The notes below the pieces were generated by a model, which was not told where the DNA came from, did no database searches, and worked only from the letters and a program-made list of their open reading frames with translations. A stretch of DNA of 40,775 bases from positions 1 through 40,775 of the forward strand of contig NZ_NHSJ01000114.1 in the NCBI RefSeq assembly GCF_002937075.1. Direction: 5' to 3'. The position numbers and the translations under genes are program-made. Positions 5,190-22,460 of this stretch are shown in pieces; position 1 is the stretch's first letter; every line of letters starts with the position of its first letter. Origin of the DNA: Rhodoblastus sphagnicola. GTDB lineage: Bacteria; Pseudomonadota; Alphaproteobacteria; Rhizobiales; Beijerinckiaceae.

Positions 5190-6233
<1,044 letters not shown>

Positions 6234-6330: not shown

Positions 6331-6376
6331 ATTAGATCATATATTCCGTATGACCTTATGCGGCAGTTTCATGAAT
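6331..6376 (+). promoter_or_regulatory. 46-bp conserved regulatory element, copy 1
   Basis: Layout: ATTAG, 12 nt, GTATGACCTTAT, 8 nt, TTCATGA. The same blocks and spacings occur at 9293, 13731 and 22415. This copy lies 152 bp upstream of the aldo/keto reductase start at 6179, with the enzyme operon on the ATTAG side. At the two copies with a recognisable LysR gene or relic, that reading frame begins at or next to the TTCATGA block. Here no LysR sequence follows, and the DNA runs directly into the 3' end of an SDR gene. It is probably the binding site and promoter region of a LysR-type regulator. Confidence 0.6.
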
Positions 6377-6423
6377 TGCCGTCCTTGCGCGGGGGCGCGG
6401 CCGGACTGGGGCGCGCGCGCCTG

Positions 6424-7251
6424 TTACTTTTGCGCGAGGTCCCCATACCAATAGGAAGCCGTCACGCCGCCATCGATCAGAAAGTCGGCTCCGGTGATGA
6501 AAGCGCCAGCCTCGCTCATGAGCATGGCGCCAAGCTTGCCGATTTCGTCGGGCGTTCCGGCGCGGCCGGCCGGGCACAGGTCGATCATGCGGCGGTAGCC
6601 GGCGCCGCGCGAACCGGTCAATTCGTCCTTGGCGAGCGGCGTGATCACTATTCCCGGGCTGATCGCATTGACCCGCGCGCCACGCTTACCCCATTTCACG
6701 GCCTCGGCCATGACCCGCAACGAATTGCAGCGTTTGGAGACCTGATAGGCGCGCAGCGGGTCGGCAACCTTATCGGGTTGCAGCATCGGAAGCGCCAACA
6801 GATCGTCGGAGGGCGTCGTCGCCAGCGCCTTGTCCTGGTCGGGCGTCAGCGCCGGAAGGCGGTGGCCGGACATCGAGCCGATCACCACGCCGGAGCCGCC
6901 GGGCGCGATGACCGCGCCGAATTCTTCGAGAACGACCGCCGTTCCATAGAGATCGACTTTCAGGATGACCTCCGGCGGAGCCTGCGAGGGCGAGACGCCG
7001 GCGGCGTGAATCACGCCCCTGACCTCGCCGAGCGCCGTCGCCACCCCGACAAGATCATGAACCGACGCACGCGCGGAAACATCGACTGTCGCCACGCTGA
7101 CCTCGAACCCGGCCTCGCTCAGCACCTTGGCCGCCGCTTCGGCATTCTCCCGACGCAGATCCGCCAACAAAACCTGTTTTCCGGCGCTGACCCGGCGCGC
7201 GATGGCCTGACCAATCGATCCGGCTCCAATGACGACAATGACATCGGTCAT
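6424..7251 (-). CDS. SDR family oxidoreductase
   Basis: 275 aa with an N-terminal GAGSIG nucleotide loop (residues 9-14), a variant of the classical TGxxxGIG motif. AAGVS replaces NNAG, GSMSG is the serine region and YQVSK carries the Tyr/Lys pair. The tail GADFLIDGGV is typical of enoyl-reductase-like SDRs. An AAAGGA ribosome site precedes the ATG. It is a clear paralogue of the SDR at 22569, with the same length and shared blocks DLYGxAVVxEEF, VIAPGG, RGARVNxISPGIV and ITGxDxLIDGG. It is the last gene of the operon alcohol dehydrogenase - NAD(P)H-binding protein - SDR. The substrate is unknown. Confidence 0.9.
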   Translation of the reverse strand: MTDVIVVIGAGSIGQAIARRVSAGKQVLLADLRRENAEAAAKVLSEAGFEVSVATVDVSARASVHDLVGVATALGEVRGVIHAAGVSPSQAPPEVILKVDLYGTAVVLEEFGAVIAPGGSGVVIGSMSGHRLPALTPDQDKALATTPSDDLLALPMLQPDKVADPLRAYQVSKRCNSLRVMAEAVKWGKRGARVNAISPGIVITPLAKDELTGSRGAGYRRMIDLCPAGRAGTPDEIGKLGAMLMSEAGAFITGADFLIDGGVTASYWYGDLAQK

Positions 7252-7305
7252 GGCTTTTCCTTTCGTGACATCGGTGAACGGCGAGGACCGGCTCAGATCG
7301 ACTTT

Positions 7306-8106
7306 TCAGATCGCTTTGGCGTGCGACGCGAATTTTTCCAGCTCTTCGCGGACATAGCGCGGCTCCGCGTCGAGCGGCATATTGGGCAGATCCTGAACGC
7401 CATCGAGAGCGCCTGGGGGATCTGACTCAAGAGAAGCGAACAATGCATCGAGACGGTCCGGCGCCGGGCCTTTTTCCGCGACCAGTTCGAATGTCTTGCC
7501 CAGCGCCTGATCACAGGACAGGCTGCCCACCAGCACCTGGGCGATCTGGCGGCGCGCGATCACGCCATCGCTGGGGTCGCCGGCGCGCCGCGTGTCGCCT
7601 TGCAACAAAACGATACGATGCTGGTCGGGCGCATTATAATCGAACCAGCCGGGACGCACGATCGTATAGGGGAGGCCACTGGCGCGCAGGAGGCGTTCGG
7701 AGCGGCGTTTCCAGTCATGGGCCTCGGTGGCGCGATTATACGGACCGAGGCGTTCGGTGACGCCGATGGCGGTCATCAGCGCAATCCGCGCGCGGCGCGT
7801 TCCCAGCGCCGCCAGCACATTGCGTACGCCGCCATAGCTCACCTGTTCGGCGCCGCGTTTGCCCTGGCCGTCCGCGCCCAGGGTCAGCACGATGGCGTCG
7901 ACGCCATCCACGGCGGCGGCGAGCGTCTCCGGCCGGGTCACGTCACCAACGATCACCTGCGCCGCCGGGGGCAGCTGGCGCGCCTTGGCGGCGTCGCGGA
8001 CAAGCGCGCGCGCCACATGGCCTTGCGCCAGCGCCTCTTCAATGACAAGGCGTCCGATACTTCCGGTCGCGCCGACGACGAGAATGGTCAACGGGACAGA
8101 ACTCAT
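7306..8106 (-). CDS. NAD(P)H-binding protein, atypical SDR (NmrA/SDR_a5-like)
   Basis: 266 aa from ATG at 8106, which has GGAG 8 nt upstream; the longer frame to 8133 lacks a ribosome site. The Rossmann motif GATGSIG is at residues 12-18, followed by ALVRD, VGDVT and IVRPGWF, as in NmrA/HSCARG-type atypical SDRs. There is no YxxxK catalytic motif, so it may sense NAD(P)H or have a weak or different activity. It sits between the alcohol dehydrogenase (45-bp gap) and the SDR at 7251 (54-bp gap), all leftward, as an apparent operon. This family often accompanies stress-inducible oxidoreductases. Confidence 0.87.
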   Translation of the reverse strand: MSSVPLTILVVGATGSIGRLVIEEALAQGHVARALVRDAAKARQLPPAAQVIVGDVTRPETLAAAVDGVDAIVLTLGADGQGKRGAEQVSYGGVRNVLAALGTRRARIALMTAIGVTERLGPYNRATEAHDWKRRSERLLRASGLPYTIVRPGWFDYNAPDQHRIVLLQGDTRRAGDPSDGVIARRQIAQVLVGSLSCDQALGKTFELVAEKGPAPDRLDALFASLESDPPGALDGVQDLPNMPLDAEPRYVREELEKFASHAKAI

Positions 8107-8151
8107 AACCACTCCAACTGTCTGTGGGCGCATCCGTAGGGACGAGGCCGA

Positions 8152-9201
8152 TCAGTCGAGTTTCAGCGAGGCCATGTCGATGACGAAGCGATAGCGGACG
8201 TCCGATTTTTCCATCCGCTCGAAGGCGTGGTTGATCTCGTCCATGCGGATCATCTCGCAGTCCGGCAGGATGTTCTTCTCGGCGCAGAAATCGAGCATTT
8301 CCTGCGTCTCACGAATGCCGCCGATCGGCGAGCCCGCGATCCGGCGCCGGCCGAGAACCAGCGGCACCGTGCTCGGCTCCGCGAGAGGGCCGATCTGCCC
8401 GACGATCACCAGCGTGCCATCGACATCGAGCAGCGGCATATAGGGGTTGAGGTCGTGCTTGACCGGCACGGTATCGATGATCAGATCGAACCCATTGGCG
8501 GCTTTCGCCATGGCGTCGGCGTCGCTTGAAACCAGCAGGGCGTGCGCGCCCAGCGCATGGGCGTCGGCGGCCTTGTCGGGCGTGCGGCTGAGCACGGTGA
8601 CATGAGCGCCCAAGCCGGCGGCGAGTTTGACCGCCATATGGCCGAGACCGCCCAGGCCGATGACGCCGACCCGGCTGCCGGGACCGACCTTCCAGGTCTT
8701 CAGCGGCGACCAGGTGGTGATGCCGGCGCACAGCAGCGGCGCGGCCCTGGCGAGGTCAAGGCTGTCGGGAACCCGCAGCACGAATTCTTCACGAACGACG
8801 ATATGCTTGGAATAGCCGCCGAGCGTATGCTCCTTGGTGAAGCGGTCGAACCCGCCATAAGTTCCCGTATTGCCCTCGCGGCAAAGCTGCTCCTCGCCCT
8901 TCAGGCATTGGTCACAATGCTGGCAACTGTCCACCATGCAGCCGACCGCGACATGGTCGCCGATGCGGTATTTCTTGACCTTTGCGCCGATTTCGATGAC
9001 GCGGCCGACGATTTCGTGACCGGGAATGGCGGGAAAGACCGTCCAGCCCCAATCGTTGCGGGCCCAGTGCAAGTCCGAGTGGCAGACGCCGCAATAAAGA
9101 ATTTCCATCACCACATCATCGGCGCGGGGCGCGCGACGCTCGAAGGAAAAGGGCGCCAGCGGCGCGCGGGCCGATGTGCAGGCAAAGCCACGAGTCTTCA
9201 T
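8152..9201 (-). CDS. Zinc-dependent NAD(P) alcohol dehydrogenase (YahK/CAD-like MDR)
   Basis: 349-aa medium-chain dehydrogenase that reduces aldehydes or oxidises alcohols. Catalytic zinc ligands are C40 (YCGVCHSD), H62 and E63 (PGHE), and the LLCAGITTW cysteine. The structural zinc site is complete with C93, C96, C99 and C107. The Rossmann motif GLGGLGHMA and the CAD-family pattern GGYSKHIVV are present. It is the first gene of the leftward operon under element copy 2 and diverges from the LysR gene with 135 bp between them, so LysR is its likely regulator. A decayed N-terminal copy of the same gene type lies at 13972. Cinnamyl-alcohol-type or broad aldehyde reductase activity is plausible, not shown. 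Confidence 0.94.
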   Translation of the reverse strand: MKTRGFACTSARAPLAPFSFERRAPRADDVVMEILYCGVCHSDLHWARNDWGWTVFPAIPGHEIVGRVIEIGAKVKKYRIGDHVAVGCMVDSCQHCDQCLKGEEQLCREGNTGTYGGFDRFTKEHTLGGYSKHIVVREEFVLRVPDSLDLARAAPLLCAGITTWSPLKTWKVGPGSRVGVIGLGGLGHMAVKLAAGLGAHVTVLSRTPDKAADAHALGAHALLVSSDADAMAKAANGFDLIIDTVPVKHDLNPYMPLLDVDGTLVIVGQIGPLAEPSTVPLVLGRRRIAGSPIGGIRETQEMLDFCAEKNILPDCEMIRMDEINHAFERMEKSDVRYRFVIDMASLKLD

Positions 9202-9292
9202 GGTTCAAACATTTCCTGTTGCGGATCGTGACAAGCCAAGGACCGGGATCGAGGGCTTCAGGGACGCAACATAGCACCAGTGGATTATGGGA

Positions 9293-9338
9293 ATTAGATC
9301 AGATATTCTGCATGAGCCTATGTTTTGGATTCATGAAT
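9293..9338 (+). promoter_or_regulatory. 46-bp conserved regulatory element, copy 2 (ADH-LysR intergenic)
   Basis: ATTAG at 9293, 12 nt, GCATGAGCCTAT at 9310-9321, 8 nt, TTCATGA at 9330-9336. It occupies the divergent promoter between the alcohol dehydrogenase (start 9201) and the LysR gene (start 9337) and overlaps the LysR start. This is the only copy that still has an intact LysR gene, so it is the reference for the other three. LysR proteins usually bind in the divergent spacer next to their own gene. Confidence 0.65.
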
Positions 9339-10230
9339 GCAACGCGACGAACTTGGCGATTTGATCGGATTCCTGGCGGTGGCCGAGGAGCGCAGTTTTA
9401 CCCGCGCCGCCGCGCGCATCGGCACATCGCAATCCTCGCTGAGCCATACGATCCGGCGGCTGGAGGAGCGCATGGGCGTTCGGCTGTTGACGCGCACGAC
9501 CCGCAATGTCGCGCCGACCGAGGCCGGCGAGCAGCTCGTCCAGACGCTTCGTCCCGCCTTCGGCGAGATCCAGGCGCGGCTCGATTCGCTCACCGCCCTG
9601 CGCCACAAGCCGGCCGGCGTCATTCGCATCACCTCGAGCCGCCGCCCCGCAGAAACAATCCTGATGCCGGCGGCGATGCGCCTCATGGCCGATTACCCCG
9701 ACATTATGGTGGAGATCTCGATCGATGGGCGGCTGACCGATCTCGTGGCCGAGCGTTACGACGCCGGCGTGCGCCTGGGCGAGCGCGTTGAAAAAGACAT
9801 GGTCGCCATCAAGATCGGCCCGGAGTTGCGGATGGCCGTCGTGGGGTCGCCAGATTATTTTGCACGGCGTCCGAAACCCGTGACGCCGCACGAGCTGACG
9901 CAGCATGCCTGCATCAATCTGCGCCTGCCGACGCTGGGCGGGCTTTACGCCTGGGAGTTCGAAAACAACGGCCGCCCCCTCAATGTCCGCGTCGACGGCC
10001 AGTTCACCTGCAATGACGCGCCGATGATCGTTCGCGCGGCGGTCAACGGCCTTGGGCTGGCATGTCTTCCCGACGATCAATTCGACGACCTGATCGCGCA
10101 GGGTCGCCTCGTCCGCGTTCTCGAAGACTGGTGTCCGCCGTTTCCGGGCTATCACCTTTATTACCCAAGCCGGCGCCAGGCTTCGCCAGCCTTCGAACTG
10201 TTCGTCGAAGCCTTGCGCACGCGCGACTGA
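9337..10230 (+). CDS. LysR family transcriptional regulator
   Basis: 297 aa, normal for LysR. The N-terminal winged helix (residues 5-65) contains EERSFTRAAARIGTSQSSLS and the wing region RRLEERMGVRLLTRTTRNV. The C-terminal periplasmic-binding-like effector domain runs from about 95 to 295. The ribosome site is weak, and the start lies directly on the conserved TTCATGA block. It is divergent from the alcohol dehydrogenase operon. Because the 46-bp element in this promoter recurs upstream of three more enzyme operons and no other intact LysR gene is in the window, this protein is the best candidate to control all four. The effector is unknown; related regulators of aldehyde reductases sense reactive carbonyls. 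Confidence 0.94.
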   Translation: MQRDELGDLIGFLAVAEERSFTRAAARIGTSQSSLSHTIRRLEERMGVRLLTRTTRNVAPTEAGEQLVQTLRPAFGEIQARLDSLTALRHKPAGVIRITSSRRPAETILMPAAMRLMADYPDIMVEISIDGRLTDLVAERYDAGVRLGERVEKDMVAIKIGPELRMAVVGSPDYFARRPKPVTPHELTQHACINLRLPTLGGLYAWEFENNGRPLNVRVDGQFTCNDAPMIVRAAVNGLGLACLPDDQFDDLIAQGRLVRVLEDWCPPFPGYHLYYPSRRQASPAFELFVEALRTRD

Positions 10231-10369
10231 TTGAAAACCGGCGACGAAGGCGTCTACAGCGCGCGCCAAGCAAATCCGCGAAACTGGACGCCGGTCTTGC
10301 GAACAGGATCGGCGGACTCGCCGACAGGTTTGGGCGAATTCAAATCTGTCAGGGAAGGATGTTTCACCC

Positions 10370-11890
10370 ATGCTGATCTTCGAGACCATCCTGGCCCTGC
10401 TGCTCGGCGCGGCGCTGCTGTCGATGCTGGCGCGGGCGATCGGCGCGCCCTATCCGGTCCTGCTGGCGCTCGGCGGCGCCGTACTGGCTTTCGCGCCGGG
10501 GCTGCCGAGCCTCGATCTGCCGCCCGATCTGATCCTGGCGCTGTTCGTCGCCCCCGTGCTGCTGGACGCCGCGCATGACATGTCGTTCCGGGATCTCAAG
10601 CGCAACTGGCGGCCGGTGTTTTCGCTGGTGGTCGTCGCCGTCGGGCTGACGACCCTCGCCGTCGCCATGGTCGCGCGCTGGTTCTTGCCGGACATGCCCT
10701 GGGGCGCAGCCATTGCGCTGGGGGCGCTGCTGGCGCCGCCCGACGCCGTATCGGCCATCGCGGTGATGCGCCAAGCCAAGCCGCCCCACCGCATCCGCTC
10801 CGTGCTCGAAGGCGAAAGCCTGCTCAACGACGCTACGTCCCTGCTGATTTACCGGCTCGCGGTGGGCGCGGTCGTCACGGGAGAACTGACGTTCCAAGAG
10901 GCGGCGCCGCAATTTCTTCTGGTCGCTTTCGGCAGCGTCATCGTGGGCTGGAGTCTGGCGCGGCTCGCCCTCGTCCTGATCAATCGCATCGCGGATGCGC
11001 CAACGTCGACAGTCCTTCAGTTCATCACCACTTTCGGCGTCTGGCTGCTCGCAGAGCGCCTCGGTCTGTCCGAAGTGGTGACGCTGGTGACGTTCGGGCT
11101 CACGGCCGGGCGCGGTTCGACGCTCGCCGCGCGCGCCGATGTCCGGCTGAAGTCCTACGCCAACTGGGAGACCGTGACCTTCGTGCTCAATGTGCTGGCT
11201 TTCACGCTGATCGGCCTGCAGCTTCGCCCGATTCTGGCCGCGCTGGAAGATGGCCGGCACATCGACTGGCTGCTGCTGTCCCTTGTGATTCTCGCCGTCG
11301 TGATCGCGGTTCGGCTGGCTTGGGCGTTCATTTACCGAGGCCTGCGCCACGCCACCGCGAACGAACCGGGAGAGATGACCCGACCCGAAAGCATGAAAGC
11401 CGCGCTCATTGTCGGCTGGTCCGGCATGCGCGGCATCGTGACACTCGCCGCGGCGCTTGCCCTGCCCGAGGCCTTTCCCTATCGCCCCTTCATTCTGCTG
11501 ACCGCTTTCACCGTGGTGCTGGGCACGCTGGTGATTCAGGGCGCCACGCTGCGCCCGCTGCTCGCCTGGCTCGACTTGCCGGCGGACAGATTGATCGAAC
11601 AGGAGATCGCGCTGGCGCGCGCGGCGACCCTGACGGCCGCGCTGGAGGCGCTCGGCGGCGAAGACGGCCCGGCCGCCGAACGACTTCGCCTGGAATATGC
11701 GTCAATGCTGGAACAGGCCAAGGCCGGGCAAGACCCCTATGCCGTGCCAGACAAAATCTTACGGCGACAGATCATCCCCCATGCGCGCCATGCGCTCGAC
11801 GACTTGCGCTGTCGCGGCGAGATTGGGGATGACGCTTACCGGCAGGTGGAGCACGAACTCGATCGTCTGGAGCTGACCACGCGCGTCTGA
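10370..11890 (+). CDS. CPA1-family cation:proton antiporter (NhaP-like)
   Basis: 506 aa. The first 400 residues form about 12 hydrophobic helices, followed by a hydrophilic C-terminal tail rich in charged residues (from about 405). CPA1 signatures are GALLAPPDAVSA, EGESLLNDATSLL and GWSGMRGIVTLAAALALP, the last typical of bacterial Na+/H+ or K+/H+ exchangers. In the first motif, family members usually have TDPVA, while here it is PPDAV with the Asp retained. GGAAGGA-like sequence precedes the ATG. It is transcribed alone, with 139 bp after LysR, and ends at a strong hairpin. Its role in pH or cation homeostasis is not tied to the neighbouring enzymes. Confidence 0.9.
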   Translation: MLIFETILALLLGAALLSMLARAIGAPYPVLLALGGAVLAFAPGLPSLDLPPDLILALFVAPVLLDAAHDMSFRDLKRNWRPVFSLVVVAVGLTTLAVAMVARWFLPDMPWGAAIALGALLAPPDAVSAIAVMRQAKPPHRIRSVLEGESLLNDATSLLIYRLAVGAVVTGELTFQEAAPQFLLVAFGSVIVGWSLARLALVLINRIADAPTSTVLQFITTFGVWLLAERLGLSEVVTLVTFGLTAGRGSTLAARADVRLKSYANWETVTFVLNVLAFTLIGLQLRPILAALEDGRHIDWLLLSLVILAVVIAVRLAWAFIYRGLRHATANEPGEMTRPESMKAALIVGWSGMRGIVTLAAALALPEAFPYRPFILLTAFTVVLGTLVIQGATLRPLLAWLDLPADRLIEQEIALARAATLTAALEALGGEDGPAAERLRLEYASMLEQAKAGQDPYAVPDKILRRQIIPHARHALDDLRCRGEIGDDAYRQVEHELDRLELTTRV

Positions 11891-11915
11891 GCCGGCGCGA
11901 GACTTTCGCGCCGGC
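11891..11915. terminator. Hairpin between convergent genes
   Basis: Perfect 10-bp GC-rich stem (GCCGGCGCGA / TCGCGCCGGC) with a 5-nt loop, starting directly after the antiporter stop and 10 bp before the stop of the convergent SDR. There is no long T-run on either strand. The position fits a bidirectional transcription end point. Confidence 0.6.
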
Positions 11916-11924
11916 GCGGTCGGA

Positions 11925-12683
11925 TCAGACAGGGATCGGATTGGCGATCACCGACGCGTTGAAACCATTGATCAGCGCGTGCTCGTTGGGGCCCTGATTG
12001 GCGCGCAGCGGGCGCGCCGCCTCGACGATCACTTCCTCGTCCTCGGTTTCCAGTCCCGCCATGGTCTGGGCGATGAAGGCGTCGAGCGGCATGGCGCGGG
12101 GATCGCCGCTCCGCTTGATCAGGTCGGTGTCGACCCACGGCGGCGCGATTTCCTGCACCTTGACGCTGGTGTCGCGCAACATGAAGCGCTGTGACAGAGC
12201 ATAGGAATGCAGCGCCGCCTTGGTCGCCGAATAGACGGCTGTGGGCGCCAGCGGCAGATAGGCGAGCACGGAAGTGTTGTGGATGATCGTCGCCCTTGGC
12301 TGCCGCTTGAGGTGCTCGATCAGCGCCGAGGTCATCAAGATCGGTCCGAGCAGATTGGTGTCGACGATGCGGCGCGCGACCGCCTCGTCAATCTGCCCGC
12401 CGGCATTGTCGAACGGCATGATCCCGGCATTGTTGATCAGCACGTTGAGCGCCGGATAGCGCGCCGTCAGTTCTGTCGCGGCGGCGGCGATGCTGGCGGG
12501 ATCTTCTACGTCCATCTCGATGAAGCCCATGCCGGGATTGGCGGCGGCGACTTCTTCGAGCAGGGCCTTGCGGCGCCCGCCAATCACGACCGTATTGCCG
12601 CGCGCAAAAAAGGCTTCGGCGAGGCCGCGCCCGATGCCGGAGGCGCCGCCGGTGATGAAAATGGTGTTGCCGGTGATCTGCAT
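11925..12683 (-). CDS. SDR family oxidoreductase (DltE-like)
   Basis: 252 aa. Classical cofactor motif TGGASGIG (11-18), NNAG, the Ser region HNTSVLAY and YSATK. The long substrate loop (PPWVDTDLIKRSGDPRAMPLDAF) resembles the DltE/YbbO-like SDR group. The ATG is preceded by AGGAAA. It is transcribed leftward, 55 bp downstream of the SDR gene at 13551, so the two probably form an operon under the inverted repeat at 13599. The substrate is unknown. Confidence 0.92.
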   Translation of the reverse strand: MQITGNTIFITGGASGIGRGLAEAFFARGNTVVIGGRRKALLEEVAAANPGMGFIEMDVEDPASIAAAATELTARYPALNVLINNAGIMPFDNAGGQIDEAVARRIVDTNLLGPILMTSALIEHLKRQPRATIIHNTSVLAYLPLAPTAVYSATKAALHSYALSQRFMLRDTSVKVQEIAPPWVDTDLIKRSGDPRAMPLDAFIAQTMAGLETEDEEVIVEAARPLRANQGPNEHALINGFNASVIANPIPV

Positions 12684-12738
12684 TGTCGTGTTTCCTGGTT
12701 TGCGTGGTTGGTCGTGTGAAACGATGGCCTCTGGCGCT

Positions 12739-13551
12739 TCACGCCGGGAGGCCGTTCTGTTTTCTCAGGCTCTTGTCGAAGGCGGATTCGGGGACGAAAC
12801 GGCGCAGCAAGCTGACCTGCCCGGCCATTTTTCCAGCGGGATAGCGATGCTTCGGACGAAGGGCCGTCGCGGCCTTCAGCACGGCGCCGGCGACGACATT
12901 GGGCATGTCGCCGGTTTCCATGGCTTTGCGCATGACGGCGCTCAGGCTGGCGCGGCCGGAATCATAGACATCAAGCGCCTGATCCGGCTTGACCAGATTG
13001 TCCTCGAACGAGGTGCGTGTATAGGCCGGCTCGACCACGACAACGCGAATGCCCTGCGTGCGCAATTCATGATCGAGCGACTCCGAATAGCCTTCGATGG
13101 CGTGTTTGGTCGCGGCATATAGGGCGTTGAAGGGCGCGGGGATCAAGCCCAGAACGGAGCTCATGTTGACGATGCGCCCGCTTCCTTGCCGCCGCATGAT
13201 CGGCAGCACCGCATTGGTCACGCGCATCACGCCGAACACGTTGATGTCGAACAGGCGTTGAGCCTGGGCGATCGAGGATTCCTCCGCGCCGCCCAGCAGT
13301 CCCACCCCGGCATTATTGACCAGGAGATCGATGCGGCTGGCCTCGCCAATGACGTCAGCCACGAGCTTTGACACCGAGGCGTCGTCCGTCACGTCGCAGG
13401 GCAGCATGGTCACGCCAGCGAGGCCGACGGGCGAGGGCCTCCGGCTGGCGCCGAAAACCCGATAACCCGCCTTGGCCAAAGCCGTCGCGGTTGCGCGGCC
13501 AATGCCCGAGGAGGCCCCGGTGACCAGGGCGACGCGATGGATCGTACTCAT
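12739..13551 (-). CDS. SDR family oxidoreductase
   Basis: 270 aa from ATG at 13551, preceded by AAGGA about 8 nt upstream. A longer open frame to 13749 is noncoding upstream DNA that contains regulatory repeats. TGASSGIG is at residues 11-18, with NNAG, MSSVLG and YAATK. The C-terminal part (KAATALRPKHRYPAGKMAG) is typical of the short-chain dehydrogenases annotated as oxidoreductase/SDR17-like that accept bulky or lipid-like carbonyls. A 13-bp inverted repeat lies 48 bp upstream of the start, suggesting control by a dimeric repressor not encoded nearby. Confidence 0.92.
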   Translation of the reverse strand: MSTIHRVALVTGASSGIGRATATALAKAGYRVFGASRRPSPVGLAGVTMLPCDVTDDASVSKLVADVIGEASRIDLLVNNAGVGLLGGAEESSIAQAQRLFDINVFGVMRVTNAVLPIMRRQGSGRIVNMSSVLGLIPAPFNALYAATKHAIEGYSESLDHELRTQGIRVVVVEPAYTRTSFEDNLVKPDQALDVYDSGRASLSAVMRKAMETGDMPNVVAGAVLKAATALRPKHRYPAGKMAGQVSLLRRFVPESAFDKSLRKQNGLPA

Positions 13552-13598
13552 TTTGGTTTCCTTCAAGACAGGGTGGGGCTGGCTTGGAAGAACGATGG

Positions 13599-13633
13599 TA
13601 TCATTTCGATAGTCAGTCAATATCGAAACGATA
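13599..13633. promoter_or_regulatory. 13-bp inverted repeat, putative repressor operator
   Basis: TATCATTTCGATA (13599-13611), a 9-nt spacer, then TATCGAAACGATA (13621-13633). The arms are complementary except for one position, and each arm is itself nearly palindromic. It lies 48 bp upstream of the SDR start at 13551, where a promoter would be. The architecture suits two dimers of a TetR-, MarR- or HxlR-type regulator. Confidence 0.6.
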
Positions 13634-13971
13634 GTTTCTCGCGGCTTCTTCTGGGGCGCTTGCAGGGACACGCTTGCGCTTGTGCAAGAGAAGCAAGAAC
13701 GACGCCTTGACCATCGCCATCGCGCGCCACACTCATGAATGACATTCATAGGCGCATGCGGATTTTGCTGCCTAATCGAAGCACAGGGAAAGAGCTAACC
13801 TCTCATCACAAAGGGAAAAGTCGCGGCGCCCGCAAATCGTTCGACCGGCCGAGGGGGCGGCTGCCCCCGACTCCTTGAGTAGTTTCCGACTCTGGGCCCG
13901 CAATCGCGCGGCTGTTTCTTTCACGCGTTCGCCCGCCCCAAACGAAAATCCCGCCGGCACGAGGATTTGTC
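13634..13971. other. Noncoding stretch between divergent genes
   Basis: About 340 bp with no convincing gene. It contains element copy 4 (13731-13776). By analogy with the intact divergon, a minus-strand LysR gene should begin near 13736 and run left. In one minus frame there is a weak LysR-like trace (ASFLLLLHKRKR), too degraded to call. The rest (13777-13971) leads to the ribosome site of the alcohol dehydrogenase relic and shows nothing recognisable. Confidence 0.5.
13731..13776 (-). promoter_or_regulatory. 46-bp conserved regulatory element, copy 4
   Basis: On the minus strand: ATTAG (13776-13772), 12 nt, GCATGCGCCTAT, 8 nt, TTCATGA (ending 13733). The spacing equals that of the other three copies. 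On the ATTAG side, 196 bp away, is the alcohol dehydrogenase relic, followed by the cupin and PRISE genes. This is the same gene order and orientation as the intact ADH-element-LysR block at 8.2-10.2 kb, in inverted orientation. Confidence 0.6.
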
Positions 13972-14171: not shown

Positions 14172-14174
14172 TCC

Positions 14175-14208: not shown

Positions 14209-14226
14209 CGTATGAGGAGCGGAAAC

Positions 14227-14622: not shown

Positions 14623-14752
14623 TCGCGCGGATCGCATTGACGGATGAAGGCTTACGAAGAAGCACGAACCTGGACGCAGCAACCCGGCGGAGGCCGCCGC
14701 CTAAGTCCACGGCCCCTTCGTGTTCATCGGACAATATTGGAAGAGCATTGAC

Positions 14753-15817
14753 ATGACTCGATCGGCATTGGTTGTGGGCGTAAGCGGCATCATAGGAAAC
14801 GCGTTGAGCCGCCGTTTGGCTCAACAAGGCTGGCGCGTCGATGGGTTGGCGCGGCGCCCGTCACGCGACATCGAAGGCGTCAATCCGATCGCGGCCGATC
14901 TGCTCGATCCCGCCGGTTTGCGGGCCGCGCTGAACAATGTGAGTCCGACCCATGTGTTCTTCGCGACCTGGATGCGTCAGCCGACGGAAGCCGAGAACAT
15001 CGAGGTCAACGCCGCCATGGTGCGCAACCTGCTGAACGTCACGTCGCGATCCGGTTCGGTGCGACATGTGGCGCTGGTCACCGGCCTCAAGCACTATCTC
15101 GGCCCATTCGAAGCTTACGGGAAGGGCGTTCTGCCGGAAACGCCCTTTCGCGAGGACCAGCCGCGCCTGAACGTGGAAAATTTCTACTACGCTCAAGAGG
15201 ACGAGGTCTTTGCCGCCGCGCTGCGTGACGGCTTCGGCTGGAGCGTGCACCGGCCGCACACGATCATGGGCTACGCCGTGGGCAACGCCATGAACATGGG
15301 CGTCACCCTGGCGGCCTATGCCAGCATCTGCCGCGAGACGGGACGGTCGTTCATTTTCCCGGGCTCAGCCACGCAATGGAACGGCCTGACCGACATGACC
15401 GATGCGCGCCTTCTCGCGCGCCACCTGGAATGGGCCGCCACCACGGAGGCCGCGCGAAACCAGGCGTTCAACGTGGTCAATGGCGATGTTTTCCGCTGGA
15501 AATGGATGTGGCGGCGCCTGGCGGGCTGTTTTGGCATCGAACCCGCTGCCTTTCCGGACCAGACTACACCGCTGGAGCGGCAGCTTGCGGGCGCCGGTCC
15601 CATCTGGGCGAAAATTGCGGCGCGCCATGGGCTGGCGGAGCCGGATCTCGGCAAGCTGGCGTCCGCCTGGCACACCGACGCCGATCTGGGTCGGCCCATC
15701 GAATGCGTCACCGACATGAGCAAGAGCCGCAAGCTTGGCTTCCTCGATTATCAGGCGACCGATGACAGTTTCTTCGATCTGTTCACGCAATTGCGGGCAA
15801 AGCGGATCATCCCGTGA
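14753..15817 (+). CDS. PRISE-family enone reductase (progesterone 5-beta-reductase/iridoid synthase-like SDR)
   Basis: 354 aa from ATG at 14753 with GGAAGAG upstream; the frame is open to 14720 without a better start. The N-terminal Rossmann motif is GVSGIIG (9-15). The PRISE hallmarks are all present: TGLKHYLGPFEAYG with K113, NFYYAQED with Y145/Y146, SVHRPHTIMGY, and NVVNGDVFRWKWMW. These are known from plant progesterone 5-beta-reductase and iridoid synthase, which reduce the C=C bond of activated enones with NADPH through the Lys/Tyr pair. Bacterial members are known but little studied. It follows the cupin gene by 130 bp on the same strand. The natural substrate is unknown. Confidence 0.9.
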   Translation: MTRSALVVGVSGIIGNALSRRLAQQGWRVDGLARRPSRDIEGVNPIAADLLDPAGLRAALNNVSPTHVFFATWMRQPTEAENIEVNAAMVRNLLNVTSRSGSVRHVALVTGLKHYLGPFEAYGKGVLPETPFREDQPRLNVENFYYAQEDEVFAAALRDGFGWSVHRPHTIMGYAVGNAMNMGVTLAAYASICRETGRSFIFPGSATQWNGLTDMTDARLLARHLEWAATTEAARNQAFNVVNGDVFRWKWMWRRLAGCFGIEPAAFPDQTTPLERQLAGAGPIWAKIAARHGLAEPDLGKLASAWHTDADLGRPIECVTDMSKSRKLGFLDYQATDDSFFDLFTQLRAKRIIP

Positions 15818-16024
15818 GCCTTCTCATTGGAGCCTGACTGACTTCGGCTGCTCACGAAGCGCGGTCGTCAAATTCCAAGAGACAGATGGAGACCGTTCAG
15901 GTGTGCTGAATGCGATGATCCGAGCCACGGTCTGGCAGAACACGGTCGCCGGCGAGTTCTGCTGGCGGGAGTCGGACTGGCCGCTGCTCCGCTGATGGTT
16001 GGCCTTGCAAAAGGAGAGACGACG

Positions 16025-17134
16025 ATGATCAGTGAGAACAGGCCACAAGCCGCCGCCACCGAGCGAACCATGCGCGTGGCGCAAATGACGGCGTTCCGGA
16101 AACCATTCCAGGTGGTCGAGCTTCCGGTGGCGGCGCCGCGAGCCGATGGCGCCGTCATCCGCGTGGAAGCCTCTGGCGTTTGCCGCAGCGACTGGCACTT
16201 CTGGAATCACGATCTGGCGTGGCTCGGGATGAACCTCGCCCTTCCGGCCAATACCGGGCATGAGGTCGGCGGTGTGGTCGAGGAGGTGGGGCGCGATGTC
16301 CGCTCGATCAAGGTCGGCGACCGCGTGACGGTTCCCTTCCACGAATCCGACGGCACTTGCCCGCATTGCCGGGCGGGGCTTCAGAACCTTTGCGACAATG
16401 TCATCACGCCGGGCGTCCAGCGCCTGGGCGGATGGGCGCAATATGTCACCGTCACCGCCGCGGACCTGAACTGCATCAAATTGCCCGAACCGGTTGATAC
16501 TTTGTCGGCGGCGGCGCTCGGCTGCCGCTTCATGACGGCCTACCACGCGGTCATCGACCGGGGGGCCATAGAGCCCGGCGAGTGGACAGCCGTGCATGGA
16601 TGTGGCGGCGTCGGCCTGTCGGCCGTCCAGATCGCGGCGGCGGCGGACTCCCTGGTGGTGGCTGTCGATGTCGAGGAGCGCAAGCTGGCCAAGGCGCGCG
16701 AGGAAGGCGCTGTCGCCACGATCAATGCGCGCGGCCTGACGCCCGAGCAAGTCGGACAAGTGGTCAAGGACGCGACCGGCGGCGGGGCGCATGTCTCGGT
16801 CGACGCGCTCGGTCGCGGCTTCACCTTCCACCAGTCGTTCAACTCATTGCGCAAGCGTGGCCGGCATGTGCAGGCCGGGATCACCTCTCAAGAGGAAAGC
16901 GGCCAGGTCTCGCTGCCGCTCGACCTTCTGACCGTCATGAAACTCCAGGTCGTAGGCTCGCTCGGCAATCCGCATCCAAAATATGCCGAACTGCTTGAAT
17001 TGGTCGCACGTCAGAAGCTCCATCCCGCGAGGCTCGTCACACGCCAGATCTCACTCGATGACGTGACCGACACGCTGGAGCGCATGACGCGCTTCGATAC
17101 GGTCGGCTTCGAGGTGATCACACGATTCTCCTGA
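16025..17134 (+). CDS. Zinc-type alcohol dehydrogenase (MDR superfamily)
   Basis: 369 aa from ATG at 16025 with AGGAG about 10 nt upstream. A catalytic zinc site is visible (C53 in SGVCRSD, NTGHEVGG). The cofactor motif is GCGGVGLSAVQ, and the following VDV suggests NAD(H) preference. The structural zinc region reads SDGTCPHCRAGLQNLC and shows three cysteines, with the first of the usual four missing, so that site is reduced or absent. A 15-residue N-terminal extension precedes MRVAQMTAF, and an internal start there is possible. It is closest in style to broad alcohol or aryl-alcohol dehydrogenases. The 207-bp gap before it shows no gene. Confidence 0.9.
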   Translation: MISENRPQAAATERTMRVAQMTAFRKPFQVVELPVAAPRADGAVIRVEASGVCRSDWHFWNHDLAWLGMNLALPANTGHEVGGVVEEVGRDVRSIKVGDRVTVPFHESDGTCPHCRAGLQNLCDNVITPGVQRLGGWAQYVTVTAADLNCIKLPEPVDTLSAAALGCRFMTAYHAVIDRGAIEPGEWTAVHGCGGVGLSAVQIAAAADSLVVAVDVEERKLAKAREEGAVATINARGLTPEQVGQVVKDATGGGAHVSVDALGRGFTFHQSFNSLRKRGRHVQAGITSQEESGQVSLPLDLLTVMKLQVVGSLGNPHPKYAELLELVARQKLHPARLVTRQISLDDVTDTLERMTRFDTVGFEVITRFS

Positions 17135-17145
17135 GGTCCGCTTAG

Positions 17146-18267
<1,122 letters not shown>

Positions 18268-18370
18268 AGGCGGCGGTTGAACAAAACGACAATCGCTTTG
18301 GCCCGTCGAATTCCGGCGGCCAAAAATCACAAGCCATGCGCTTGCATGTTGGCAAAACAGGACAACCATA

Positions 18371-19762
18371 ATGGCCTATGCGACGATCAATCCCTATACC
18401 GGCGAAACGCTCGCGACCTACAAGGACGCCACGGATTCCGAGGTCGCGGAGGCGATTGCCAAAGCGCACGGCGCCTTCCTGAACTGGAAGGAAACGCCGT
18501 TCGCCGAACGCGCGAAGATCTTGCAGAAGGCCGCCGATCTCCTGCGCCGGGATTCAGACCGCTACGCCAGACTGCTGACTCTTGAAATGGGCAAGCTGGT
18601 TTACGAGGCGAAGGCCGAAGTTGAGCTTTCAGCCAGTATTTTCGAGTATTACGTTCGCAACGCCGAACAATTGCTCAAGCCGGAAAAATTGCCCGTGCTG
18701 GACCCGGCGGAAGGCGAGGCTTTCATTGTCTGTGAGCCGCTCGGCGTGCTGCTGGCGATCGAGCCGTGGAATTTCCCCTATTATCAGGTCGCCCGCATCG
18801 TCGCTCCGCAACTCGCCGCCGGCAACACCGTGCTGCTGAAACACGCTTCCAACGTGCCGCAAAGCGCCGCCGCTTTCGAACTCTTGATGAGGGAAGCCGG
18901 CTTGCCCGAGGGCGGATTCCAGAATCTCTACGCCACCCGTTCGCAGATCGATCTGATCCTGAACGATCCGCGCGTGCAAGGCGTCGCCCTGACCGGCTCG
19001 GAAGACGCGGGTTCCGTGGTCGCCGCCCAGGCTGGCAAGGCGCTGAAGAAATCGACGCTGGAGCTTGGCGGTTCGGACGCCTTCCTGGTGCTTGCCGACG
19101 CCGACCTGGAAAAGACCTCCAAATGGGCGGTGTTTGGGCGCCATTCGAACGCGGGGCAGGTTTGCACCTCCTCCAAGCGCATGATCGTGGTCGATCCGAT
19201 CTACGATCGGTTTCTCGCCAGCTACAAGCTTGGCGTGGCGGGACTTGTGGCGGGCGACCCTTTCGATCCGAAGAGCACGCTCGCCCCGCTCTCCTCGCAG
19301 GACGCTGCCGACAAGGTCAAGGACAGGATCCGGCAGGCCGTCGCGCATGGCGCGAAGGCCGAAGAGGTCGGGCCGCCCGTGCCGAACCGGGGCGCTTTCG
19401 TGCAGCCGACGATCCTGACGGATGTCGGCGAGGACAATCCCGCCCGCTATTGGGAGTTTTTCGGCCCAGTCTCGATGCTGTTTCGCGCCAGGGACGAGGA
19501 CGACGCCGTGCGGATCGCCAATGATTCGCCGTTCGGCCTCGGCGGCTCCGTGTTCACATCGAACCCCGCGCATGGCGTCGAGGTCGCGAGGAAAGTGTCC
19601 ACCGGCATGGTCTTCGTCAATCATCCGACCAAGGCCGAGGCCGATCTGCCCTTCGGCGGCATTCGCCGCTCCGGCTATGGCCGCGAATTGATCGGACTTG
19701 GGCTCAAGGAATTCGTCAATCACAAGCTCATCGGCGTCGTCGATATCGACGCCCGGTTCTGA
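18371..19762 (+). CDS. NAD(P)-dependent aldehyde dehydrogenase (succinate-semialdehyde dehydrogenase-like)
   Basis: 463 aa, full length. The catalytic Cys is C265 in GQVCTSSKR, the general base is E231 in LELGGSD, and the oxyanion Asn is N134 in EPWNFPY. The start MAYATINPYTGE and the SSADH-like block QVARIVAPQLAAGNTVLLKH place it in the GabD/SSADH-like clade. Catalysis oxidises an aldehyde to the acid. It lies within the run of carbonyl reductases, so it would offer the oxidative route for the same aldehydes. AGGA precedes the ATG. The exact substrate is not readable. Confidence 0.93.
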   Translation: MAYATINPYTGETLATYKDATDSEVAEAIAKAHGAFLNWKETPFAERAKILQKAADLLRRDSDRYARLLTLEMGKLVYEAKAEVELSASIFEYYVRNAEQLLKPEKLPVLDPAEGEAFIVCEPLGVLLAIEPWNFPYYQVARIVAPQLAAGNTVLLKHASNVPQSAAAFELLMREAGLPEGGFQNLYATRSQIDLILNDPRVQGVALTGSEDAGSVVAAQAGKALKKSTLELGGSDAFLVLADADLEKTSKWAVFGRHSNAGQVCTSSKRMIVVDPIYDRFLASYKLGVAGLVAGDPFDPKSTLAPLSSQDAADKVKDRIRQAVAHGAKAEEVGPPVPNRGAFVQPTILTDVGEDNPARYWEFFGPVSMLFRARDEDDAVRIANDSPFGLGGSVFTSNPAHGVEVARKVSTGMVFVNHPTKAEADLPFGGIRRSGYGRELIGLGLKEFVNHKLIGVVDIDARF

Positions 19763-19857
19763 CGTTTTTCTGAAGAAAGCGGCGAAGCCCTCAAATCGCG
19801 CTTCGTCGCTTCAAGCCATCGCGGACCGCGCGAAATGCGCGAGAAGGAAATTTCGAC

Positions 19858-20688
19858 ATGACCACATGGCTGATTACCGGCTGCTCAAGCGGTCTTGGCC
19901 GCAATCTCGCCGAGGCGGTGCTGAAACGCGGGTGGAACGCGGTCGTCACAGCGCGCAATCCGGCGAAAGTCGAGGATATCGTGGCTCGCTATCCCGATAC
20001 GGTGCTCGCTCTTGCCCTGGACGTGACCGACCACAAGCAAGTCAACGACACAGGAAGGCAGGCGGAAGCCAGATTCGGCGCGGTGGATGTGCTCGTCAAC
20101 AATGCCGGCCACGGATACCGCGCCGCCGTTGAGGAAGGCGAGGAGGCCGAAGTGGCCGCGCTTTTCGCCGCCAATTTTTTCGGACCCGTGGCGCTGATCA
20201 AGGCGGCGCTGCCCGGAATGCGGGCGCGGCGGCGCGGGACCATCGTGAACCTGTCCTCGATCGCCGCGCGAAATCCAGGTCCGGGGTCGGGCTATTATGC
20301 GGCGACGAAATGCGCTCTCGAAGCGCTGTCCGGCAGTCTCCGCAAGGAAGTCGGGCCGCTCGGCGTCAAGGTGATCGCGGCGGAGCCCGGCGAATTCAGG
20401 ACCGACTTCTCCGGTCGCTCGCTGTTGCAGTCACGGACCGCCATTTCCGACTACGCGGAGACCTCGGGGCGCCGCCAAATCGAAAATGACAAGACCGATG
20501 GCCATCAGCGCGGCGACCCGGCGCGCGGCGCGCAAGCCATCGTCGACGCCGTGGAGGCCGCCGACCCGCCCCACCTTTTGCTGCTTGGCAGCGACGCCAT
20601 TCAGGTGGTCGGAGCCGCGCTCGATGCCGATCGCGCCATGCTGGAGGCATGGAAAGCAACCAGTTTGACGACGGATTTTCCAGCTTGA
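19858..20688 (+). CDS. SDR family oxidoreductase
   Basis: 276 aa. TGCSSGLG (residues 8-15), NNAGHGYRA, LSSIAA and YYAATK are intact. The GCSSGLG form and the C-terminal PPHLLLLGSDA are typical of the oxidoreductase/SDR group whose members act on retinol-like or bulky carbonyls. AAGGAA precedes the ATG. It lies 95 bp after the aldehyde dehydrogenase and 44 bp before the carboxymuconolactone decarboxylase-family gene, so it is probably co-transcribed with them. Confidence 0.92.
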   Translation: MTTWLITGCSSGLGRNLAEAVLKRGWNAVVTARNPAKVEDIVARYPDTVLALALDVTDHKQVNDTGRQAEARFGAVDVLVNNAGHGYRAAVEEGEEAEVAALFAANFFGPVALIKAALPGMRARRRGTIVNLSSIAARNPGPGSGYYAATKCALEALSGSLRKEVGPLGVKVIAAEPGEFRTDFSGRSLLQSRTAISDYAETSGRRQIENDKTDGHQRGDPARGAQAIVDAVEAADPPHLLLLGSDAIQVVGAALDADRAMLEAWKATSLTTDFPA

Positions 20689-20732
20689 GACGAACACAGG
20701 CCGGAACTTCATCGACGACCAGGAGATAGAAG

Positions 20733-21487
20733 ATGGCTTCCAATTTACGCGCGCGGAAAAACCACGACGAGTTGTTTCCAGGTCATGTTTCCACTTTGGC
20801 GAAGACCGACCCCGAACTGATCGAGACGTTTGACAATTTCGCCTTCGATGAAGTGATCTCGCACGGCGATCTGGACGCCCGCACCCGACTGATGGTTCAA
20901 CTCGCGGCGATCATCGCCTGCCAGGCCCTGCGCGAATATCAAGTCATGCTCGGCGCGGCGCTTGCCGTCGGCGTCAAGCCTGTCGAGATCAAGGAGATCG
21001 TCTATCAGGCCGTGCCTTATGTCGGCATGGCCAAGGTCTTCGACTTCATCCATGCGACAAACGAAGTTCTCGCCGAGCGAGGAATCGAACTGCCGCTGCC
21101 GTCCCAATCCACCACCACGCCCGAGACCCGCGCGGAAAAAGGGCTTGCCGTCCAGAAACAGATCATCGGGAGCACGCTGGTGGAAAAGCTCTACGCCTCG
21201 GCTCCCGCCGACCAGCTCCATGTCCAACGCTATCTCTCGGCCAATTGCTTCGGCGACACCTACACGCGCAACGGCCTCGACTTGGCGATGCGCGAACTGC
21301 TCACCTTCAGCATGCTCGTCGCGCTGGGCGGCTGCGATCCGCAGGTCAAGGGCCATGTCGGCGCCAATTGCATGTCGGCAACGACCGGAAGAAGCTGATC
21401 GACGTCTTGACCCAGCTTTTGCCATTCATCGGCTATCCCCGCACCCTGAATGGGCTGCGAGCCGTCGATGAGGTCGCCCCGTCTTGA
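20733..21487 (+). pseudogene. Carboxymuconolactone decarboxylase-family protein, frameshifted near the 3' end
   Basis: Two CMD domains, about 250 aa in all when the frame is repaired. The first frame runs from ATG at 20733 (AGGAG upstream) through DARTRLMVQLAAIIACQAL, TTTPETRAEKG, LSANCFGD and GGCDPQVKGHVGAN, then diverges and stops at 21398. The expected continuation HVGNDRKKLIDVLTQLLPFI lies in the next frame to the stop at 21487. A single missing base around 21368 explains this, since family members have ANLxVGNDR there. The truncated product lacks only the last 40 residues, so it could retain function, or this may be a sequencing error. No CxxC peroxidase motif is seen in domain 1. Confidence 0.82.
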
Positions 21488-21561
21488 GCGCACAGGTCGC
21501 CAAAGGAAGGAAAGAGCATGACGAATTTTCGCATGATCCTATGGGTTGGAGGCGCCTGACC

Positions 21562-22284
21562 ATGCGCCCCAGAATCATCTGCCACATGATGAGTTCGATC
21601 GACGGTCGCTTGCTTACGCAGCGATGGACTCGGCCAGCGTCGGGAATTGGCGATGACATCGTTCCGCGTCACTACGAACAGGTCGCGGCCAGGCTCGGCG
21701 GCGACGGCTTCCTGATCGGGCGCAAGACGATGGAGGAATACGCCTGCGTTACGGCCCACGAGCCGACAACCGGCGGCGACGCTCCACGGAAAATTCATGT
21801 CGCGGACCGGAAGGGGCGAGCCATTGCTGTTGTCGTCGATCCGCATGGCAAGCTTCACTATGCGAAAGACGACGCCAGCGGCGACCATATCGTCGCCGTT
21901 CTGAGCGAGACCGTGTCCGATGATTACCTGGCGACGCTCCGGAAAGCGGGTATTTCCTATCTGTTCGCTGGCGCGGATGGAACCGATCTGAGCGGGGCCA
22001 TGGATGTGCTCGGCGCCTCCTTCGACATCCAGACCATCCTGCTTGAAGGCGGCGGGCGTATCAATGGCGCCTTTTTGAAAGCCGGTCTGATCGACGAGAT
22101 CAGCCTGCTCATCTACCCCGGCATCGATGGCCTGGCGGGCGTGTCGAGCATCTTCGAATATGTCGGAACAGGGGATGAGCGCCCCGCCGCGGGCCGCTCG
22201 CTGCGCCATATGGCGACCGAAACCCTGGAAGGCGGCATGGTCTGGCTCCGCTATTGCATGGAAGAAAGCCCGCCCGGCGCGTGA
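21562..22284 (+). CDS. Dihydrofolate reductase-like RibD C-terminal domain protein
   Basis: 240 aa from ATG at 21562, which has GGAGG about 9 nt upstream; the longer frame to 21484 overlaps the end of the preceding gene. MSSIDGRL, FLIGRKTMEEY and LLEGGGRINGAFLKAGLIDE are signatures of the RibD C-terminal (pyrimidine reductase) domain. The deaminase domain of true RibD is absent. Stand-alone versions are NADPH-dependent reductases of mostly unknown substrate. It is the last gene of the rightward series, 74 bp after the CMD-family gene. Confidence 0.87.
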   Translation: MRPRIICHMMSSIDGRLLTQRWTRPASGIGDDIVPRHYEQVAARLGGDGFLIGRKTMEEYACVTAHEPTTGGDAPRKIHVADRKGRAIAVVVDPHGKLHYAKDDASGDHIVAVLSETVSDDYLATLRKAGISYLFAGADGTDLSGAMDVLGASFDIQTILLEGGGRINGAFLKAGLIDEISLLIYPGIDGLAGVSSIFEYVGTGDERPAAGRSLRHMATETLEGGMVWLRYCMEESPPGA

Positions 22285-22329
22285 TCGGCATATTTACGCC
22301 GCCGCCGCCCCGACCAGCGATGGCCGCCC

Positions 22330-22420
22330 GAAGGAAGCGCCGCTGCGCCCGCGAAAAAATCCGTTCCTCCGCGCCGGCGAGAGACAAGGCCAGACCGCTC
22401 AGCTCTTCCGCCGTATTCAT
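22330..22420 (-). pseudogene. LysR N-terminal relic
   Basis: The ATG at 22420 lies in the TTCATGA block of element copy 3. The frame reads MNTAEELSGLALSLAGAEER and then IFSRAQRRF. Against the start of the intact LysR at 9337 (DELGDLIGFLAVAEERSFTR), about half of 25 positions are identical, including the AEERxFxRA core, without gaps. After about 30 codons the similarity is lost. This shows that copy 3 once carried its own LysR gene in the same relative place. Confidence 0.65.
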
Positions 22421-22460
22421 GAACCCCAGAGATAGGCGCATACTCAATTCAGTATCTAAT
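22415..22460 (-). promoter_or_regulatory. 46-bp conserved regulatory element, copy 3
   Basis: On the minus strand: ATTAG (22460-22456), 12 nt, GTATGCGCCTAT, 8 nt, TTCATGA (22423-22417). It is flanked on the right, 109 bp away, by the start of the SDR-AKR operon (22569) and on the left by a LysR relic. The spacing is identical to the other three copies. Confidence 0.63.

Follow-up and report, generated by a model that had tools for sequence, protein, structure and literature searches.

LysR-type regulators usually bind a box near −65 of the target promoter and make a second contact near −35. For LysR divergons, a lys box ahead of the target promoter, spanning −74 to −53, is described in PMC3382589, and PMC9068703 gives protected regions of 50–60 bp; both present a distal recognition box combined with a proximal activation site as the known LysR layout. 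A LysR-type site with five-base arms and an n9 spacer, CTATA-n9-TATAG, is given in PMC5002191, and PMC6449761 describes CatR, ClcR, CatM and BenM as homologous divergent regulators with similar motifs, possible cross-regulation and partial substitution for one another. Here we analyze a stretch of 40,775 nucleotides from Rhodoblastus sphagnicola (assembly GCF_002937075.1, contig NZ_NHSJ01000114.1; hereafter the window), in which a 44-bp block with the pattern ATTAG-N12-GYATGMSCYTAT-N8-TTCATGA stands before four enzyme operons and, once, directly before an intact LysR-type gene starting at 9337 (LysR 9337). LysR 9337 very probably has its cognate operator in this block, which would also include a promoter under the control of the protein, so that a single regulator may drive all four operons in trans.

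The pattern matched the window four times without a mismatch; copies lacking a neighboring intact LysR gene are referred to as satellites:

6331–6374, plus strand: copy 1, putative satellite operator (matrix score 48.9 bits) that fronts an operon for an aldo/keto reductase (AKR) and a short-chain dehydrogenase/reductase (SDR); no LysR relic (z 0.4)

9293–9336, plus strand: copy 2, putative operator (53.5 bits) between LysR 9337 and an operon headed by an alcohol dehydrogenase (ADH)

9337–10230, plus strand: LysR 9337, the intact regulator, with Pfam domains HTH_1 and LysR_substrate

13733–13776, minus strand: copy 3, putative satellite operator (42.0 bits) that fronts an ADH relic, a cupin and a PRISE-like gene; no LysR relic (z 0.3)

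22417–22460, minus strand: copy 4, putative satellite operator (44.5 bits) that fronts an SDR–AKR operon

Allowing up to three mismatches left the number of window matches at four, and none arose in 100 shuffles. At the same tolerance these are the only matches in the whole genome (5,086,506 bases in 141 contigs, the window being contig 114), and a sequence model of 71 positions, built from 70 sites with the window and Rhodoblastus acidophilus left out, recovers the same four sites (E 1.3e-11 to 2.5e-7). The original prediction, made from the letters of this DNA, had described four copies with identical internal spacing and an intact LysR gene on the TTCATGA side of copy 2, and both points stand. 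So do its plus-strand starts; its length of 46 bp has to be shortened to 44 bp, its minus-strand starts (13731 and 22415) were two bases too low, and the word 'dispersed' was too strong for sites that all lie within about 16 kb.

LysR 9337 has the N-terminal HTH_1 domain (PF00126, E 3e-22) and the LysR_substrate domain (PF03466, E 3.3e-41) of a LysR-type protein. Seventy-nine loci of its homologues, at 59–94% identity, were compared (best 80 of 243 relatives kept), and in most of them the block occupies exactly positions −44 to −1 relative to the LysR start codon, a fixed placement that holds across alpha- and gammaproteobacteria. Measured against the 24 specified positions, 38 of the 79 homologue starts show at most three mismatches and 55 at most five. 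A weight matrix of 69 distinct sites was then derived with the window and R. acidophilus excluded (71 of 78 homologues had no more than nine mismatches; seven were dropped); it gives copies 1–4 the scores listed above, 42–54 bits, as against a best score of 8.2 among 1,811,690 shuffled positions. The motif also tracks the regulator: among 298 genomes of the family it occurs at up to three mismatches in 42 and the LysR (E ≤ 1e-90) in 78, with 40 of the 42 falling among the 78 (Fisher p 2e-25). The two motif-bearing genomes that lack the LysR (G432 and G445) have GC-rich matches with three mismatches, which look fortuitous, and a control pattern, the motif reversed, gave no match in the family genomes. 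By place, 33 of the 66 family matches precede a LysR start by 100 bp or less, 20 are at most 30 kb away from such a start (including the three satellites of the window), 11 lie elsewhere in a LysR-bearing genome and two in LysR-free genomes. In a sample of the order the motif was found at up to two mismatches in nine of 199 genomes, the present one counted. This comparative evidence supports well the reading of the block as an operator that a LysR clade has conserved, in line with the original proposal of a LysR site before enzyme operons, for which a matrix and a scan of relatives had been suggested as checks.

Some places in relatives deserve separate mention. A Microvirga contig (G480 C177:26255-53366, loci L138 and L139) carries six operator matches in 27 kb and three LysRs of the clade. 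Strong sites at 6788 (minus strand) of L151 and 6523 (plus strand) of L152, in the two genomes G364 and G400, have no clade LysR close by, with LysRs elsewhere in the genome; both adjoin an open frame that reads as sulfatase-like from its sequence only. At L153 (2651-2720) a clade LysR follows the operator, with ATT at the start-codon position and the LysR frame offset by one base, which means either an unusual start or a lost one.

Searching the R. sphagnicola genome with LysR 9337 returned 20 LysR-like matches, the next best being only 33% identical: LysR 9337 is the sole close member of its clade in this genome. Its counterpart in R. acidophilus DSM 137 is 94% identical. The 20 matches raise the question of whether each satellite might instead be read by a different, unlinked LysR, and the strong satellites far from a LysR in G364 and G400 point the same way, as does R. 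acidophilus, which has a second LysR of the clade (64% identity) with its own sequence-model match (C34:54480). For the window, a division of labor of this kind is improbable, given that no other close clade member is encoded in the genome and that motif presence follows this particular clade in 40 of 42 genomes; moreover, both motif and LysR are lacking from six of 11 Rhodoblastus genomes, and in the four of these six that were searched with the sequence model no match was found at E ≤ 1.

To describe the site base by base, 87 distinct LysR-linked sites and 35 distinct LysR-free satellite sites, drawn from the window, the 79 homologue loci and 20 fetched stretches and scoring at least 28 by the matrix, were aligned. 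These numbers apply when a satellite is defined by the absence of a full LysR N-terminus in a profile search; requiring instead that no LysR start lie within 150 bp gives 86 and 36, the two rules differing by L063 with its LysR fragment. One site, in L026, has a LysR start about 196 bp further on and may be part of that gene. Without exception, T29 and A41 recur in the LysR-linked (87 of 87) and the satellite sites (35 of 35), and they stand at 96% and 94%, respectively, among the 79 homologue starts taken without selection. Together they make up a T-N11-A box, of the kind typical of LysR-type operators, inside the sequence YTATG-N9-CATRA (motif positions 26–44); all four window copies have it, and at copy 2 the box extends to the LysR start. 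On the enzyme side, outside the matrix, a TA at −20/−19 recurs in 66 of 87 LysR-linked and 28 of 35 satellite sites, whereas at 54 other offsets TA occurs on average 1.1 and 0.7 times (maximum 7 and 4). All four window copies carry this TA, which is predicted to be part of the −10 element of the enzyme strand (TANNTT); a spacer of 17–18 bp would put ATTAG on the −35. The predicted elements in the window are:

6306–6311, minus strand: predicted −10 of the AKR–SDR promoter (copy 1), with ATTAG at its −35

9268–9273, minus strand: predicted −10 of the promoter of the ADH–NmrA–SDR operon (copy 2), with the TA at the fixed offset

13796–13801, plus strand: predicted −10 of the copy 3 enzyme promoter, with the TA at the fixed offset

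22480–22485, plus strand: predicted −10 of the SDR–AKR promoter (copy 4), which departs most from the other three

Transcription is predicted to start near motif position −31, that is, at about 6299, 9261, 13808 and 22492 for copies 1–4, which would center the box at about −66 and place the inner GCATG at −49 to −53. With the start so predicted, the geometry fits the LysR arrangement in which the recognition box is distal and the activation site proximal. Read along the enzyme strand from upstream to downstream, the putative operator would consist of the T-N11-A box, the inner GCATG contact, ATTAG on the −35 and then the −10 (TANNTT). A LysR tetramer at the box might slide to the inner sites on binding of an inducer and thereby recruit RNA polymerase to the enzyme promoter, and at copy 2 the same binding would cover the ribosome-binding site and start codon of LysR 9337, giving autorepression.

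Comparison of LysR-linked with satellite sites amounts to a natural dissection, in which the bases that would serve binding and enzyme activation are separated from those that would serve only expression of the regulator. A11 of a TATAAT-like stretch is found in 76 of 87 LysR-linked versus 11 of 35 satellite sites, the purines before TTCATGA in 84 versus 17 (R35) and 80 versus 20 (R36), and G47 of the LysR start codon in 82 versus 15, the first codons likewise being kept only where a LysR follows; these positions are read as the −10, the ribosome-binding site and the start of the LysR gene itself. The position of the ATG had raised the possibility of a leaderless LysR start, which was dropped because GG or GA precedes TTCATGA in most LysR-linked sites and is lost at satellites. 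Since the box overlies the ribosome-binding site and start of the LysR gene, its occupation should repress LysR. At the core elements (ATTAG, GCATG, YTAT and TTCATGA), by contrast, the positions tested show no significant difference between the two classes. The retention of the enzyme −10, which lies outside the matrix, and the loss of A11, R35 and R36, which lie inside it, are free of any bias from selection by matrix score.

Decay of the LysR-side features at satellites might also suggest that these sites are dead leftovers used by no protein. Their enzyme −10 and T-N11-A box are retained, however, and between the window and R. acidophilus, which has kept copies 2 and 3, only seven of 88 positions differ in these two copies (five being in copy 3), and the pattern survives every one of these changes; we rate it very improbable that the satellites are without function. 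Because copies 1, 3 and 4 keep operator and enzyme promoter without a working LysR gene, LysR 9337 would be expected to act on all four copies in trans.

On the ATTAG side of each copy stands an enzyme operon whose Pfam content is as the original prediction had it:

4424–6179, minus strand: copy 1 operon, AKR 5190–6179 and SDR 4424–5164 (Pfam)

6424–9201, minus strand: copy 2 operon, zinc-dependent ADH (Ahr-like) 8152–9201, NmrA-like protein 7306–8106 and SDR 6424–7251 (Pfam)

13972–15817, plus strand: start of the copy 3 operon, open reading frame 13972–14622 (ADH relic plus cupin) and PRISE-like gene 14753–15817

22569–24410, plus strand: copy 4 operon, SDR 22569–23396 and AKR 23421–24410 (Pfam)

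The ADH at 8152 scores 321 bits against the NCBIfam Ahr model, below its cut-off of 470. The ADH relic of copy 3 (13981–14226) is an N-terminal piece, 48% identical over 82 residues to this ADH and without a Pfam match, that is in frame with the cupin (14227–14622), the two forming an open frame of 216 residues (13972–14622); in R. acidophilus (L188) a similar ADH relic adjoins the cupin. At 188 bits, the cupin exceeds the cut-off (140) of the NCBIfam equivalog model for (R)-mandelonitrile lyase, and its relatives are often the nearest homologue of a window enzyme at operators of this LysR clade, which links a bacterial cupin hydroxynitrile-lyase family to operons of the aldehyde-reductase type.

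The same orientation is found in relatives. At 22 of the 33 satellites located beyond the window, a gene homologous to a window enzyme starts within 700 bp on the ATTAG side and points away, compared with three that have one on the other side and 399 of 4,000 random points in the same loci. The blocks in relatives are hence not randomly placed; random placement, which had been named beforehand as evidence against a regulatory role, was not seen. Six of the other 11 satellites front, by Pfam, a [2Fe-2S] subunit (L026, L046 and L151), a cytochrome c (L025 and L060) or a carboxymuconolactone decarboxylase-like protein (L148), and at L151 the [2Fe-2S] subunit is followed by open reading frames that, read from their sequence, resemble other subunits of aldehyde oxidoreductases of the xanthine-dehydrogenase type. 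The common theme of the genes fronted by the operator is probably redox chemistry of aldehydes and alcohols, and we infer that the inducer is aldehyde-like. This directional placement (22 of 33 versus three of 33) also bears on the idea, suggested by several near copies in one region, that the block could be a short mobile element or repeat with no regulatory role. That idea is scarcely credible and can be regarded as already refuted by position-specific conservation: only a subset of positions is conserved, at a fixed geometry to LysR starts in alpha- and gammaproteobacteria, and the genome holds no full copy elsewhere.

Turning to the origin of the modules, one LysR relic was found in the window, in a position other than the one proposed:

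22339–22416, minus strand: relic of a LysR gene start beside copy 4, with the start codon lost and the frame shifted, recognized by nucleotide alignment against shuffles

From its first base this segment aligns with LysR starts (68.5 versus 29.5 ± 3.6 for shuffles; none of 100 as good, z 10.9). At copy 3, where the original prediction had placed the relic, neither a profile search nor nucleotide alignment detects one (39 of 100 shuffles are as good), and alignment with shuffles likewise reveals none at copy 1. Among all 35 satellites aligned in this way, a relic is clear at copy 4 and L145 (z 7.9) and weakly indicated at L033 (z 3.5), while the alignment of each of the remaining 32 to LysR starts is equalled by three or more of its 100 shuffles. 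In addition, L063 of Microvirga massiliensis retains a LysR fragment of about 65 residues (64% identical), which passed the LysR profile and precedes relatives of the copy 4 SDR–AKR pair (76% each). The earlier claim that most regulators were lost is thus borne out at copy 4 and lacks a relic to support it at copies 1 and 3.

These relics bear on a further reading, in which only the operator moved: short operator/promoter segments would have recombined or arisen anew, and most satellites would never have stood beside a LysR. The 32 satellites without a recognizable relic, copies 1 and 3 among them, are what such a history would leave, and it is a possibility that we consider unlikely without dismissing it lightly. 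It sits poorly with the relics at copy 4, L145, L063 and, weakly, L033, and with the relatives of the copy 1 and copy 4 AKRs that lie before an intact LysR in other genera. Satellites also carry the enzyme −10 at the same spacing, so that at least the promoter must have moved along.

The original prediction had gone further in holding that one enzyme/LysR divergon was duplicated several times in place, after which three LysR copies were lost. This scenario would account for the clustering of four similar operators, the LysR relic beside copy 4 and the recurrence of related enzyme families (AKR and SDR) between modules; the AKR tree nevertheless largely refutes it, and it is accordingly given little credence, if slightly more than the assignment of each satellite to a different LysR. 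The three AKRs of the window are 61–67% identical to each other, compared with 73–81% to their best relatives in other loci, so the enzymes of these modules are not each other's closest kin; the tree puts each of the three in a supported clade of its own, together with rows from other genomes, of other genera or families. SDR 22569 and SDR 6424 are likewise 54% identical to one another and 76–79% to relatives elsewhere. The copy 4 relic, moreover, aligns with the LysR start of L157, from a genome of the family, at 68.5 and with that of L063 at 66.5, but with that of LysR 9337 at only 34.0, and is thus nearer to Microvirga-type LysRs, and two of the three satellites have no relic at all. From the AKR clades and the affinity of the relic it follows that the modules are more plausibly separate, older divergons of one operator code that were assembled here than copies made here.

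The tree comprises 10 satellite, 48 LysR-linked and three window rows, plus three that are neither; the rows of L064, L090 and L153 have shifted LysR starts, and the 10 satellite rows come from eight sites, three of them (L146) lying behind a single one. The satellite label requires nine changes on it, at least seven of which are forced by supported branches, against a mean of 9.4 for shuffled labels. Being scattered like shuffled labels, the satellite state is not restricted to one lineage. A search of the class returned relatives of SDR 22569 at E ≤ 1e-90 in one of 289 genomes, namely its own, so this sample yielded no further copy 4 loci. The DNA of R. acidophilus matches the window at 3688–5802, 7595–14529 and 20220–21480 and lacks 5803–7594, which includes copy 1, and 14530–20219; within the 36 kb of it that were compared, no match was found to 21480–26000 of the window.

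The best model, on these sequence comparisons, places several modules under one LysR whose operator they have in common; the regulator proper to at least one of them has been lost. The modules may have arisen as separate enzyme/LysR divergons of one clade with a common operator code, been gathered in one cluster and then undergone decay of the redundant LysRs. Extended to the clade as a whole, the thought would be that it provides a shared operator code for the trading of enzyme modules, and that a regulon grows by regulator loss and not by gain of sites: where a resident clade LysR reads the same operator, the regulator of an incoming module becomes redundant and decays, and the regulon is thereby enlarged. 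The scatter of satellite AKRs among LysR-linked ones and the six operator matches on one Microvirga contig are signs of repeated trading, the lack of a LysR relic at most satellites counts against it, and we put this generalization forward tentatively, at somewhat less than even confidence.

Several observations weigh against the assignment of all four copies to LysR 9337. More than five mismatches are seen at 24 of the 79 homologue starts, and a match with up to three mismatches is absent from 38 of the 78 family genomes that carry the LysR, so that some members of the clade appear to have a drifted operator or a misplaced start; several of the 11 matches located elsewhere in LysR-bearing genomes are weak, with three mismatches. 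The match of the satellites to the core is partly by construction, because they were chosen by matrix score. The 22 satellites that front a homologue include two weak ones (31% at L053 and 27% at L152) as well as the R. acidophilus counterpart of copy 3, and five of the 33 (L027, L062, L088, L141 and L147) have no assigned gene on the ATTAG side. The enzyme start sites derive from the −10 consensus and are, as such, predictions; copy 4 deviates at its −10 (GTAAATA) and was matched by the sequence model from position 25 onward only. The genome also contains a fifth, partial match at C63:19395-19433 (G000), with 26 bits and E 2.8e-5 by the sequence model. It is without ATTAG, exceeds the best shuffled matrix score (15.0 versus 8.2), is flanked by the 3′ ends of a gene that reads as deacetylase-like from its sequence and of another LysR gene, and is provisionally treated here as a vestigial half site. 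A former LysR at copies 1 and 3 is assumed, just one window copy showing a relic, and binding, activation, autorepression and trans action are proposed for LysR 9337 from support that is comparative throughout.

Away from the four modules, the window has three further features. The 3′ portion of an HlyD-type fusion protein gene (3197–3757) continues into the terminal part of an MFS transporter gene (3582–4421), a junction that looks like a deletion joint; a DUF1638 protein with an HxlR-like stretch at its N-terminus lies at 31168–32493; and a transposase (DUF772/DDE_Tnp_1) is encoded at 34629–35729, downstream of an RND pump region.

By sequence, the best solved relative of LysR 9337 among the 12 Protein Data Bank sequences listed is 3HHG (E 2.5e-33 over residues 8–276), which is CrgA of Neisseria meningitidis. 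In Escherichia coli, yafC presumably adjoins an AKR gene. The YafC model (NCBIfam NF040888) is the highest-scoring named model for LysR 9337, at 147.7 bits and far below its cut-off of 470, and a passage of PMC9068703 lists the protein by name only. No description of the present operator or regulon was found in the literature searched, which covers part of the field only. An unnamed LysR clade, seen here in alpha- and gammaproteobacteria, gains an operator described base by base, a promoter layout and a predicted oxidoreductase regulon, and the window supplies a tangible example, in which a gene relic can be seen, of how a bacterial regulon might expand through regulator loss.

Set against the systems described at the outset, the locus agrees with LysR divergons in general in the divergent arrangement of regulator and target and in a T-N11-A box upstream of the target promoter, and its YTATG-N9-CATRA resembles the CTATA-n9-TATAG given in PMC5002191. 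It differs in that the full operator/promoter is repeated before three more operons without a LysR, and in that the box coincides with the ribosome-binding site and start codon of the LysR gene. CrgA of Pseudomonas aeruginosa SJTD-1 has, as described in PMC6422896, mirror-like repeat sites unlike the present operator. For operator sharing, the nearest parallel is the CatR/ClcR/BenM group as portrayed in PMC6449761, whose operators of the AkACC-N5-GGTAT type differ from the consensus found here. Those regulators serve catechol genes, whereas oxidoreductase modules stand behind the operator of LysR 9337, and the additional regulators are here absent or reduced to a relic.

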